Positions 17,812 to 35,615 of a stretch of 64,000 nt of DNA are shown in pieces. This stretch comes from Rhodospirillales bacterium. Lineage in GTDB: Bacteria > Pseudomonadota > Alphaproteobacteria > Rhodospirillales > JASLLZ01. The stretch covers positions 1 to 64,000 of the forward strand of contig JASLLZ010000009.1 in the NCBI GenBank assembly GCA_030746775.1, written 5' to 3'. Both the position numbers and the translations under genes were made by a program. The notes under the pieces are model-generated. The model was not told where the DNA came from and did not search any database. It saw nothing but the letters and a program-made list of their open reading frames with translations. Every line of letters starts with the position of its first letter. Within the stretch, counting starts at the first letter, position 1.

Positions 17812-18512
17812 ATGAAACGCTTTCTTGCCCTCGTCGTTCTTGCCCTTGCCGTCGGCGCGGCGATGCTGTGGAACGGGGAGACACAAGACGATCCGGCGAA
17901 GGCCGAAATCCAACGTTTCCACGTCCTTCAACCGTTGGCCGAACAGGGCGACGCGGACGCCCAGTACGACCTGGCCGGGCTTTACCGGGCGGGTAGGGGC
18001 GTCGAGGTGGACCCGAGGGCAGCCGCCGAGTGGTATCTCAAGGCGGCGAAAAAGGGTCACGTGGCCGCCCGCCATGCCCTGGGCCGCATGTTCGAGACCG
18101 GCCAGGGGGTCAAACGAAACTTCCAAAAAGCCGCCCAGTGGTACGGGCTGGCGGCCGGCATCGGCGAGCATGGTGAAGCCCAATACGACCTGGGCACCCT
18201 TTACTATCACGGTCGCGGCGTTCCCCACGATTACGCCGTGGCGATCAAATGGTACCGCAAGGCGGCCCTTCGGGGCCACACGGTGGCTCAATTTCACATG
18301 GCGCCATGACCGAGGAGGGCTGGGGGCGCGCGTCGGATCCCGTCGAGGCCTATGCCTGGTACACCCTCGCCATGGACAAGGCCGAGCAGGCAAAGGCGCG
18401 CAACCCCAAGTACGACCCGGTGGCTAGGCGCGACAGGCTGGAGCGCAAGATGAACCGCTTCCAGATCGACCAGGCCGAAAAAAAGGTCGAGGCCTTGATG
18501 GCCGGGGGCTAG
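17812..18512 (+). pseudogene. Sel1-repeat (TPR-like) protein with a single-base frameshift near 18300
   Basis: Frame 17812..18309 has Sel1 repeats (DAQYDLAGLYRAGRGVEVDPRAAAEWYLKAAKKGHVAARHALGRMFETGQGV...); continuation AMTEEGWGRASDPVEAYAWYTLAMDKAEQ is in the frame ending 18512. Confidence 0.82.
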
Positions 18513-18615
18513 AGCGAATCCCGAGCGGATGGAACCATCCGCGACGACGTATTTGCGGTTAAAACAAAGAGTTAGAGATCTTTCGGTGAACGCATGTGAA
18601 TGGAAGGTACTCTAG
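18509..18615 (+). repeat. 107-bp dispersed palindromic-ended repeat element, copy 1
   Basis: CTAGAGC...GCTCTAG-type ends (CTAGAGCGAATCCC...GGTACTCTAG); about 87% identical by eye to reverse complement of 33375..33481. Confidence 0.9.
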
Positions 18616-19247
18616 GCTCGGGCCATCAGGCCGCTGGCGGCGATGCCGTCGAAGATGAACTGTACGGCCAGGGCCGCCAGCAGGACGCCGACGACGCGGG
18701 TGATCACGTAGCTCCCCGTCACGCCCAGCACCCTTTGTACGCCCCCGGCGATGAGCAGCAACACGAGGGTGATCGCCAGAACCGCGAGAAGCGCCGCCAA
18801 CACCACCGCTTGGCGCTCCACATCGCCCCGGCTCTCGGCGGCCAGCAGGACGACGGCCCCCATGGCTCCCGGTCCGGCGATCATCGGCGTCGCCAAGGGG
18901 AAGACCGAGATGTCGGCCTTGTGCCCCGCTTCTTCGGATTCGTCGGCGGTGGCGGACGTTCCGCCCGAGTGACGGGCAAACACCATGTCGATGGCGATCA
19001 GCAAAAGCAGGATACCGCCCGCCGTGCGCATCGCCGCCAGCGTGATGCCCAGATGCGCCAGCAGGTCGTTGCCGAACAGCATGAAGACGATCAGCACGGC
19101 GGCCGCGATGAGCGTTCCCTTGACCGCCATGGCGCGCCGCTGGCGGGGCGTTGCGTTGGGCGTCAGCGCCGCGAACACCGCCGCCGTGTCGACCGGGCCG
19201 ATGGTGGCGAAAAAGGTGGTAAAGGCGAGCAGGCCGGATTCCAACAT
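18612..19247 (-). CDS. MarC family integral membrane protein
   Basis: FTTFFATIGPVDTAAVFAALT ... FPLATPMIAGPGAMGAVVLLA; typical MarC/NAAT topology. Confidence 0.92.
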   Translation of the reverse strand: MLESGLLAFTTFFATIGPVDTAAVFAALTPNATPRQRRAMAVKGTLIAAAVLIVFMLFGNDLLAHLGITLAAMRTAGGILLLLIAIDMVFARHSGGTSATADESEEAGHKADISVFPLATPMIAGPGAMGAVVLLAAESRGDVERQAVVLAALLAVLAITLVLLLIAGGVQRVLGVTGSYVITRVVGVLLAALAVQFIFDGIAASGLMARA

Positions 19248-32661: not shown

Positions 32662-33372
32662 TCAACCGGCGGCGATAATCTGGCCGTTGCGTGTCTCGCC
32701 GGGCGTTGCCAGGTCGACGAAAACCCCGGCGATGTCTTCGGGCGGCCTCAGAGTCATCGGGTCCTCGCCGGGAAAGGCTTCGGCGCGCATGGCGCTGCGG
32801 ATGACGCCGGGGTCGACCAGATTGACGCGAATGGGTGTCTTCGCCACCTCGGCGGCATAGATCTTGATCATGGTTTCCAGTGCCGACTTGGTCGTCGCGT
32901 AGGTCCCCCAATAGGGCTTGGTGCCGCGCGCCGCGCCCGAGGTGACGAAAAGGGCGCGCCCGGCATCGGACTGGCGCAGCAAGGGATCGAAACTGCGAAT
33001 CAGGCGCCAATTGGCGGTAAGGTTCAGCGCCACGGTCTGTTCCCAAAGCGCCGGATCGGTATGGCCGAGCGGACCCAGTATGCCCAGCATGGCGGCGTTG
33101 CCGACCAAGACGTCAAGGCGCCCAAAGCGTTGGAAGACGGCGGCTCCCATCTCGTCTATCTTGGCATAATCGGTGAGGTCGGCGGGAACCAGGGTGGCGT
33201 GGCCGCCGATTTTCTGGATCTCGTCGTCGAGCTCCTCCAGCGCGCCCTGGGTGCGGGCAATCAAGATCAGGTGCGCGCCTTCTTCGGCGAAGCGCTTCGC
33301 CACGGCGCGTCCGATGCCCCGCGAGGCCCCGGTGACAAGCGCCACGCGCCCTTCCAATCTGCCGCCGGTCAT
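32662..33372 (-). CDS. short-chain dehydrogenase/reductase
   Basis: VALVTGASRGIGRAVAKRFAEEG, LVGNAAMLG, YATTK. Confidence 0.92.
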   Translation of the reverse strand: MTGGRLEGRVALVTGASRGIGRAVAKRFAEEGAHLILIARTQGALEELDDEIQKIGGHATLVPADLTDYAKIDEMGAAVFQRFGRLDVLVGNAAMLGILGPLGHTDPALWEQTVALNLTANWRLIRSFDPLLRQSDAGRALFVTSGAARGTKPYWGTYATTKSALETMIKIYAAEVAKTPIRVNLVDPGVIRSAMRAEAFPGEDPMTLRPPEDIAGVFVDLATPGETRNGQIIAAG

Positions 33373-33374
33373 GG

Positions 33375-33481
33375 CTAGAGCATTTTCCGTTCACATGCGT
33401 TCACCGAAAATTCTCTACCTCCTTGTTTTAACCGCAAATACGTCGTCGCAGATGTAACCATCTGCTCGGGATTTGCTCTAG
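33375..33481 (-). repeat. 107-bp dispersed palindromic-ended repeat element, copy 2 (inverted relative to copy 1)
   Basis: Reverse complement CTAGAGCAAATCCCGAGCAGATGG...GGAAAATGCTCTAG aligns end to end, without gaps, with 18509..18615. Confidence 0.9.
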
Positions 33482-34932
33482 CCTTGATCGGCGAGCAGCG
33501 AGAGCTGCAAATGCTGGGGCCCGCCTTCGCGATCCGTCAGGGGGACCGGATACTGGCCGGTGAAACAGGCGTCGCAGAACTGCGGCACCTCGGAGTCCCG
33601 GGGAGTCCCGCCGACGGCGCGGTAGAGACCATCGATGGAAATGAAGGCCAGGGAATCGACGCCGATGTGCCGCGCCATGGCCTCGACGTCGTAGTCGGTC
33701 GCCAGGAGCTCCTTGCTCTCCGGCGTGTCGATGCCATAGAAGCACGAATGCGCCGTCGGCGGGCTGGAAATGCGCAAGTGAACTTCCTTGGCGCCGGCGC
33801 CGCGGACCATTTCGACGATCTTCAACGAGGTGGTGCCGCGGACGATGGAATCATCGACCAAAACAACCCGCTTGTCCTTGAACTTGGCCGCGTTGGCATT
33901 GTGTTTGAGCTTGACGCCGAGGTGGCGGATCTGGTCCGAGGGCTCGATGAAGGTGCGCCCCACGTAATGATTGCGGATGATGCCAAGTTCGAACGGCAGC
34001 CGCGCTTCCTCGGCGAAGCCGAGCCCGGCGGGAACCCCGGAATCGGGAACCGGCACCACCATGTCCACGGGCACCGGGCTCTCGCGCGCCAGTTCGGCGC
34101 CGATGCGCTTGCGCACGTCATAGACGTTTTTTCCGTCAACCGTGCTGTCGGGGCGCGAAAAATAGATGTACTCGAAGATGCAAAATCGCGCCGGTTCATG
34201 GATGAAGGGCTTGATCGAGTGAAGGCCGTCCGCGTCGATGACGACGACCTCGCCCGGTTCGACGTCGCGCACGAACTCGGCGCCGATGATATCGAGGGCG
34301 CAGGTTTCGGAGGCCAGGATGAAGGCGTCGCCCAGCCGACCCAGAATCAGGGGCCGGATGCCAAGCGGATCGCGAACACCGATCAGGGCCTCCTTGGTCA
34401 GGGCGACCACGGCATAGGCGCCTTCGATCTGTTTCAAGGCATCGATCATGCGGTCGACCACGGTGGAATAGAGGCTGGTGGCGATGAGGTGAATAATGAC
34501 CTCGGTATCCATGGTCGACTGAAAGATGCAGCCCCGCTTGACGAGAGTCTTGCGCAAGCCGATGGCGTTGGTCAGATTGCCGTTATGGGCGATCGCCAGG
34601 CCGCCGAAATCGAACTCGGCGAACAAGGGCTGGACGTTACGCAAGATGGTACCGCCGGCCGTTGAATAGCGGTTGTGGCCGATAGCCAGGGCGCCGGGCA
34701 ACCAACCGATGACCTGCTCGGAGCCGAAGCTGTCGCCGACCAGGCCGAGCGCCCGGTGATGATGAAATTGTTCGCCGTCGAAGGAGACGATGCCCGCTGC
34801 TTCCTGGCCCCGGTGTTGCAGGGCGTGCAGGCCGAGCGCGGTATGGGCGGCGGCGTCGGGGAGCCCGTGGATGCCGAAAACACCGCATTCCTCGTGGAAA
34901 TGGTCGTCGTCGCTAAGATGGATCGTCTTCAT
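33478..34932 (-). CDS. purF: amidophosphoribosyltransferase
   Basis: EECGVFGIHG N-terminus (catalytic Cys), VLVDDSIVRGTTSLKIVEMVRGAGAKEVHLRISSPP. Confidence 0.97.
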   Translation of the reverse strand: MKTIHLSDDDHFHEECGVFGIHGLPDAAAHTALGLHALQHRGQEAAGIVSFDGEQFHHHRALGLVGDSFGSEQVIGWLPGALAIGHNRYSTAGGTILRNVQPLFAEFDFGGLAIAHNGNLTNAIGLRKTLVKRGCIFQSTMDTEVIIHLIATSLYSTVVDRMIDALKQIEGAYAVVALTKEALIGVRDPLGIRPLILGRLGDAFILASETCALDIIGAEFVRDVEPGEVVVIDADGLHSIKPFIHEPARFCIFEYIYFSRPDSTVDGKNVYDVRKRIGAELARESPVPVDMVVPVPDSGVPAGLGFAEEARLPFELGIIRNHYVGRTFIEPSDQIRHLGVKLKHNANAAKFKDKRVVLVDDSIVRGTTSLKIVEMVRGAGAKEVHLRISSPPTAHSCFYGIDTPESKELLATDYDVEAMARHIGVDSLAFISIDGLYRAVGGTPRDSEVPQFCDACFTGQYPVPLTDREGGPQHLQLSLLADQG

Positions 34933-34943
34933 GGGCTTCCTCG

Positions 34944-35615
34944 TCACCGTTTGTTCTGAATCAGACGCTCCATATCCGTGCGCTCCTTACGGTCGTATCC
35001 GGGTGTGCCCTCGGTCTCGCCGCTTTTCGGATTCGGCGTAAGCATGTCGCGGAGAATCTTCTCCGGGTCAAGCGCTTTCAGCGCTTTGTCTTCCGCGTCC
35101 TTGGCGGTTTCGGCGCCGGCCTCGGCGATGTCCTCTGGCACCAGGGCCTCCAGAAGGTCCGCTCCGGCCTCGACCAGCGGCATAACGCGGGCCGTGCGCA
35201 GCCATTCGGGCTGCTCCTTGGGCGGCGCCATCCATTCGACGGCGATATAGGCCAGGCAGACCAGGACGGCGCCGCGCAGCACGCCGAACAAAAAGCCGAG
35301 CGAGCGGTCCAGCACGTTGAGGGCGCTTTCCTGGACCCGTCTGGCGATGAAACCGGTGATAAAAGCAAAGATGGCGAGACTGGCGATAAAGAGGACGACG
35401 CCGGACACGAAGTCGGCGGCAATTTCCATGGTAATTAGTTCGCGCATGTAAGGCTTAAGATAAGGATAGCCGTGGATGGTGCCGAAGATGGCGCCGATCC
35501 AGCTTGCCACCGCCAGGACCTCGTGGACGAAGCCCCGTCCCCAGGCGATGAGCGCCGAGATCAAAAGCACCACGCCGACGGCGATATCGACGCCGTTGAT
35601 CCCCATCTCATCCAT
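34944..35615 (-). CDS. cvpA: CvpA family protein
   Basis: MDEMGINGVDIAVGVVLLISALIAWGRGFVHEVLAVASWIGA; located between purF and radA. Confidence 0.9.
   Translation of the reverse strand: MDEMGINGVDIAVGVVLLISALIAWGRGFVHEVLAVASWIGAIFGTIHGYPYLKPYMRELITMEIAADFVSGVVLFIASLAIFAFITGFIARRVQESALNVLDRSLGFLFGVLRGAVLVCLAYIAVEWMAPPKEQPEWLRTARVMPLVEAGADLLEALVPEDIAEAGAETAKDAEDKALKALDPEKILRDMLTPNPKSGETEGTPGYDRKERTDMERLIQNKR

Follow-up and report, generated by a model that had tools for sequence, protein, structure and literature searches.

The DNA analysed here, referred to as the window, is a stretch of 64,000 nucleotides from the 3.63-Mb draft genome of a Rhodospirillales bacterium (G000). It carries two copies of a 107-bp repeat in opposite orientations. 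The genes on either side of copy 1, a Sel1-repeat gene and, convergent to it, a MarC gene, both have their stop codons rebuilt by its ends, and copy 2 lies between a PurF-like and an SDR gene (33373-33376). The features assigned to the two copies, which we attribute below to a MITE, are as follows:

18509-18615, + strand: putative MITE copy 1 with its target, from alignment, BLAST, covariance model and orthologous empty site; flank C 18509, TA 18510-18511, element 18512-18612, TA 18613-18614, flank G 18615
33375-33481, - strand: putative MITE copy 2 with its target, from alignment, BLAST, covariance model and sister-species empty site; flank C 33481, TA 33480-33479, element 33478-33378, TA 33377-33376, flank G 33375
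18510-18512, + strand: stop codon TAG of the upstream Sel1-repeat gene, target TA plus the element's first base G
18612-18614, - strand: stop codon TAG of the convergent MarC gene (18612-19247, - strand), target TA plus G of the other element end
33478-33480, - strand: stop codon TAG of the PurF-like gene (33478-34947, - strand), at the left end of copy 2
32662-33372, - strand: SDR gene, with its start 2 nt past the right end of copy 2
18512-18526, + strand: left terminal repeat of copy 1, GAGCGAATCCCGAGC (family consensus GAGCAAATCCCGAGC)
33378-33392, + strand: right terminal repeat of copy 2, read inward, GAGCATTTTCCGTTC
18514-18556, + strand: hairpin A of copy 1, outer and inner stems with a conserved internal loop CCCGA/GACGACGT
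18514-18519 with 18551-18556: outer stem of hairpin A, GCGAAT/ATTTGC, copy 1
18525-18531 with 18536-18542: inner stem of hairpin A, GCGGATG/CATCCGC, copy 1
18557-18572, + strand: A-rich linker GGTTAAAACAAAGAGT, its outline common to the rhizobial elements described below
18573-18614, + strand: hairpin B, palindrome TAGAGNATTTTC...GAAAATGCTCTA, helix 3 of the pairing analysis

The two window copies, each 107 bp long, aligned without gaps at 86.9% identity, which equals 14 mismatches (about 14 had been counted by eye in the initial annotation), and a sequence check returned the ends that it had given. The mobile part is the ~101 bp between two TAs, GAGC...GCTC; the TAs that flank it on either side are the duplicated target, and the outermost C and G of the 107 bp are flank. 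With regard to the neighbouring genes, the Sel1-repeat gene (17812-) upstream of copy 1 displays a frame change near 18300 (18295-18315), beyond which its C-terminus is encoded in a different frame that runs up to the stop at 18510-18512, and this reflects either a real pseudogene or an assembly error. The ATG of the SDR gene follows only 2 nt after copy 2, and the upstream region of this gene therefore appears to have been replaced by the insertion. At the empty site of copy 2, only TAACC lies between the ends of the PurF-like and SDR genes.

From the outside in, the element consists of the target TA, the terminal repeat GAGCAAATCCCGAGC, hairpin A, the linker TTAAAACAA, hairpin B, the other terminal repeat (in the family GAGCATTTTCCGTTC when read inward) and TA. 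The terminal inverted repeats share GAGCA at both ends and are imperfect further in. The 7-bp stem reported previously, with its G-C/A-T exchange between the two window copies, was real, and it lies inside an outer GCAAAT/ATTTGC stem, with which it forms hairpin A. The element thus has two hairpins, not one, hairpin B being the right-hand palindrome TAGAGCATTTTC...GAAAATGCTCTA. With regard to the invariant core of the initial annotation, one of the strongly conserved stretches, CCCGAGC, falls within the terminal repeat. Conserved outside the terminal repeats are GACGACGT (18543-18550, hairpin A loop) and TTAAAACAA (18557-18566, linker), the former with the motif GACGACG and the latter with AAAACAA.

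A window copy used as BLAST query matched the genome at 40 places, with E-values from 1e-10 to 1e-50, which excludes chance as the origin of the resemblance. From 44 copies we built a covariance model, which scored the two window copies at 128 and 116 bits and raised the number in the host genome from about 40 (BLAST) to 64. In the sister species (G001), the only genome of the same genus searched, there were six BLAST matches. Matches were obtained in 10 of 60 genomes of the order Rhodospirillales and in 6 of 115 genomes of the class, two of the latter with about 30 copies each, so that the distribution is patchy. A pattern scan of named genomes returned Roseospira, Rhodospira, Insolitispirillum, Terasakiella and many Rhodospirillales MAGs; its single matches in unrelated phyla are probably due to chance.

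To examine mobility, the flanks of filled sites were joined and searched against the sister species, and some empty-site junctions were read by eye where the automatic alignment had put the gap elsewhere. Eight orthologous sites were empty in the sister species, with TA as the precursor at seven and TG at one. For example, GTGTCC-TA-[element]-TA-GCGCC in the host corresponds to GCGTCC-TA-GCGCC in the sister species, and copy 2 (CAAGGC-TA-[element]-TA-GCCATG) corresponds to CAAGGG-TA-ACCATG. The empty site of copy 1 reads ...GGCGC-TG-AGCTTAGG.... One site was occupied in both species (L003/L031), and the flanks of one shared locus compared were 87% identical. These eight sites answered the question of a target-site duplication raised by the initial annotation: TA is duplicated. 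The joined target was YTAR in 29 of 33 copies (CTAA 12, CTAG 10, TTAA 4, TTAG 3, other 4), and the TA duplication and YTAR target are both in keeping with a derivation from IS630.

In summary, the element is short (101 bp), without coding capacity and dispersed in 64 copies; it has terminal inverted repeats, a target-site duplication and empty sites in a relative, and it has its ends in common with an autonomous IS630 found in another genus of the order (G210) and not in the host genome. Because of the empty sites with TA duplication, the terminal inverted repeats and the patchy high copy number, we conclude that it is a MITE, a non-autonomous DNA transposon; its dispersal as a unit, its TA duplication, its YTAR target and its strong placement at stop codons are shown by these sequence comparisons. 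The family is new for this lineage and is of an already known alphaproteobacterial kind.

The placement at stop codons was pronounced. In 21 of 29 copies the duplicated TA opens the stop codon of a gene, which the element's G completes to TAG, the criterion being that a frame with high GC3, open over 100 codons or more, terminates on TA+G at either end of the element or at both. Gene calls were simple ORF calls, and the 21 were counted by eye from a table; at L002 the stop lies one base off the aligned end. As a background, stops were present at 38 of 232 YTAR sites (16%) outside predicted genes (binomial p = 3e-11). The gene-facing end varied, being the left one in about 14 cases and the right one in 8. 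Ten rhizobial copies with an annotated CDS overlap were also inspected, and in all ten just the gene end, i.e. the stop codon, overlapped the left, the right or both ends of the element; having been chosen for CDS overlap, they show that the overlap is the stop codon but say nothing about its frequency. Two further copies overlapped a stop codon (L093 and L332). The bias may reflect a target preference or the survival of harmless insertions, and probably both.

Rhizobial relatives bore out the caution of the initial annotation that related palindromic repeats occur in alphaproteobacteria. When aligned to model R1, built only from Rhodospirillales, five rhizobial elements of 105 bp matched over their full length with 34-45 bits, the next match being 7.7, and this end-to-end match joins them to the element as two-hairpin repeats (~105 bp, two palindromes and a linker). 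The rhizobial elements are very abundant on plasmids, occurring at 1857 places in 509 of them. Like the element in the window, they measure ~105 bp from TA to TA, have TAGAGC...GCTCTA ends, hairpins A and B, a linker with AAAACAA and an internal TAGAGC, and their ends are overlapped by annotated stop codons. They differ in the stem sequences and internal loop, and a search of plasmid (blastn) and phage collections gave no match to the window copy. This rhizobial element is probably RIME1 (Rhizobium-specific intergenic mosaic element), reported by Osteras in 1995. In Brucella, Bru-RS1 and Bru-RS2 are palindromic intergenic repeats of 103 and 106 bp (PMC10800456), and they serve as insertion sites for a TA-duplicating IS5-family element (PMC2266754, PMC3163539), as does the MITE here. 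The Brucella elements look analogous to our MITE.

Next, we considered which transposase could move the MITE. IS630/Tc1-mariner elements transpose exclusively into TA; the transposase works by itself on short end sequences, and a mini-element needs no more than 30 bp from each end to move (PMC2170065). A TA-bounded terminal-repeat search of IS630-family elements identified members of the ISRm2011-2 group with TA flanks and GAGC ends in Neorhizobium, Sinorhizobium, Rhizobium, Methylobacterium, Sphingopyxis, Methylocystis and Paracoccus, and likewise in the MITE's own order; other IS630s start with GTGGAT or GTGTCC. The ISRm2011-2 group resembles the MITE in its TA duplication, YTAR sites and ends starting GAGC, and differs in being autonomous, with ~1055 bp and a transposase gene; only the ends are in common. 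The closest IS630, L342 (L342:1375-2431), belongs to another genus of the same order (G210) and has the ends GAGCATTTTCCGATC and GAGCACATTCCGAGC. The right repeat of the MITE, GAGCATTTTCCGTTC, matched one of these at 14 of 15 positions and the left consensus, GAGCAAATCCCGAGC, matched the other at 13 of 15 (p about 0.001 for each end separately, with the inner 11 nt shuffled and the best taken over 23 IS ends); beyond the first 15 bp the two have nothing obvious in common. In the Rhizobiales relatives, the right ends GAGCGTGATGAC or GAGCATGATGAC are close to rhizobial IS630 ends GAGCGGGATGA and are identical over 11 nt to IS630 ends in G163. In G217, the MITE ends GAGCAAGATCTGATCA and a resident multi-copy IS630 (GAGCGGATTCTGATCA) share the inner box TCTGATCA. 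As the MITE ends match the terminal repeats of the ISRm2011-2 group, judged from sequence similarity an IS630 transposase of this group is its probable mover.

The search for a matching helper transposase, which the initial annotation had called for, came out negative: at E 1e-25, no ISRm2011-2-type transposase was detected in the host genome or in the sister species. Since the host genome is a draft of 203 contigs broken at repeats, the helper may be missing from it or lost. Within the order, the joint distribution of helper and MITE was not supportive, no MITE scored above threshold in G210, the genome with the best-matching IS630, and about 1.2 Mb of loci contained no TA-bounded transposase genes with GAGC ends. 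The resident IS630s (L088/L089) were rejected as helpers, their intact ends TA-GTGGATAGTC differing from those of the MITE; at L089, on host contig C150, such an IS630 adjoins a shorter copy with an internal deletion. Two IS630 fragments beside TAGAGC in G170 (L291 and L293) look like MITE copies inside decayed transposase genes, not IS ends.

According to the mechanism we propose, an IS630-family transposase of the ISRm2011-2 group would recognise the GAGC-type ends in trans, excise the MITE and join it to TA. The element starts with G at both ends and CTAG- or CTAA-type targets are often stop codons, so that insertion would yield C-TAG/AGC...GCT/CTA-G and the stop codons of an upstream and a convergent gene would stay intact. 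Such insertions would be near-neutral and accumulate, and others would be selected against. Master copies would retain the two hairpins, which perhaps serve transposition or make the element tolerable to the host. We regard it as quite likely that the element is a ~101-bp YTAR-targeting MITE moved in trans by an IS630-family transposase with regeneration of stop codons.

The initial annotation had left the choice between a MITE, a REP-like repeat and a structured RNA; the comparisons favour the first. A functional RNA or regulatory element, whether a terminator, an sRNA or a stabiliser of 3' ends, that is retained at gene ends for its usefulness would explain the position directly 3' of stop codons and the two conserved hairpins, and such repeats are partly transcribed in S. 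meliloti (PMC2873474). Covariation was seen in the stems. Among the 44 copies, 97.7% of cells were paired in the outer and 97.1% in the inner stem of hairpin A, and 85% in helix 3 of hairpin B. Both-side changes occurred at 11 of 28 pairs over the whole element, 8 of them in hairpin B; at three inner-stem pairs, both-side exchanges were seen in 20, 9 and 6 of the 44 sequences, the 20 carrying the G-C/A-T exchange first noted between the window copies. Overall, 90.7% of cells paired; shuffles reached 87.5%, and slid partners no more than 52%. However, only a few types of stem, among them GGATG, AGATG and AAACG, are represented in the copies, so that the independent events are far fewer than 20 in 44. 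The exchanges follow a few subfamilies, as expected of copies from few masters, and since these explain the paired stem changes, a functional RNA is not needed. Moreover, the sites are mostly unconserved in the sister species (1 shared site noted versus 8 empty), either end may face the gene, and no Rfam family was matched by the element at E<=1. We therefore deem a functional RNA very unlikely. Still more improbable, to the point of being barely credible, is a REP/RAYT-type or CGTC-REP repeat spread by a tyrosine transposase or another process. The element is palindromic, intergenic and present in many copies, and CGTC adjoins the inner stem of hairpin A on the reverse strand; CGTC-REPs are likewise palindromic and prevalent in alphaproteobacteria and have no known transposase (Di Nocera 2013, PMC3733652). 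However, they are defined by a CGTC tag, an 8-9 bp stem starting with A/T pairs, a CCA tail and a length of 20-40 bp, and are not known to duplicate TA, whereas our stem starts with GC and is followed by TCGGG as the tail, in a 101-bp unit with terminal repeats and a duplicated TA.

The same MITE could also be mobilised by an IS5-family (IS427/IS711-like) transposase, which would likewise duplicate TA at YTAR. A resident 844-bp IS5-family element (DUF4096 + DDE_Tnp_1, NF033580) is present in dozens of contig-end fragments and targets TA, with TAG at nearly all of 42 junctions; 6-7 of these lie on MITE ends, a pattern also shown by IS711 on Bru-RS1 in Brucella (PMC2266754, PMC3163539). The CTAG preference alone predicts about 2-3 of 42 (23 CTAG per 64 kb), which leaves a weak enrichment. 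The ends of the resident element, TA-GGCTCYRKACTCAATTA, are unlike those of the MITE, so that it was rejected as the helper, and we consider mobilisation by an IS5-family transposase unlikely. At C150 (L096:1471-2318) the 844-bp element contains two overlapping frames, and it accounts for many contig breaks. In the flanks of L015, L021 and L048, MITE copies adjoin another repeat family at its TA end (TTTTTCAGCAGCCTGCTAG and CTCATCCTGAGGAGCGAGCG nearby), which suggests nested insertion at repeat ends.

Returning to a MITE driven by IS630, there is about an even chance that this family and the rhizobial RIME1-like elements, perhaps with Bru-RS, form one IS630-driven superfamily that uses stop codons as safe landing sites. 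If so, the TA duplication and the element's G would rebuild TAG at both ends and two convergent genes would survive one insertion. Stop-codon regeneration is a simple rule by which a parasitic element can multiply in a compact GC-rich genome with its genes unbroken. Surveys of alphaproteobacterial sRNAs filter out two-hairpin intergenic repeats as noise (PMC2573895, PMC2245857), and the literature searched named no transposase for them. The candidate helper named here, testable in vitro, and the stop-codon rule are two testable additions to this known kind of repeat. A good system for testing helper/MITE pairs is G217, in which about 30 IS630 copies are accompanied by longer two-hairpin variants (L365, L367 and L370) whose inner end box matches that IS630. 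Finally, the hairpin A module also occurs alone, in head-to-tail arrays of 2-4 units of ~52-65 bp (L066 and L067 in G013, L109 and L064), and A-B units are found in tandem at L038.
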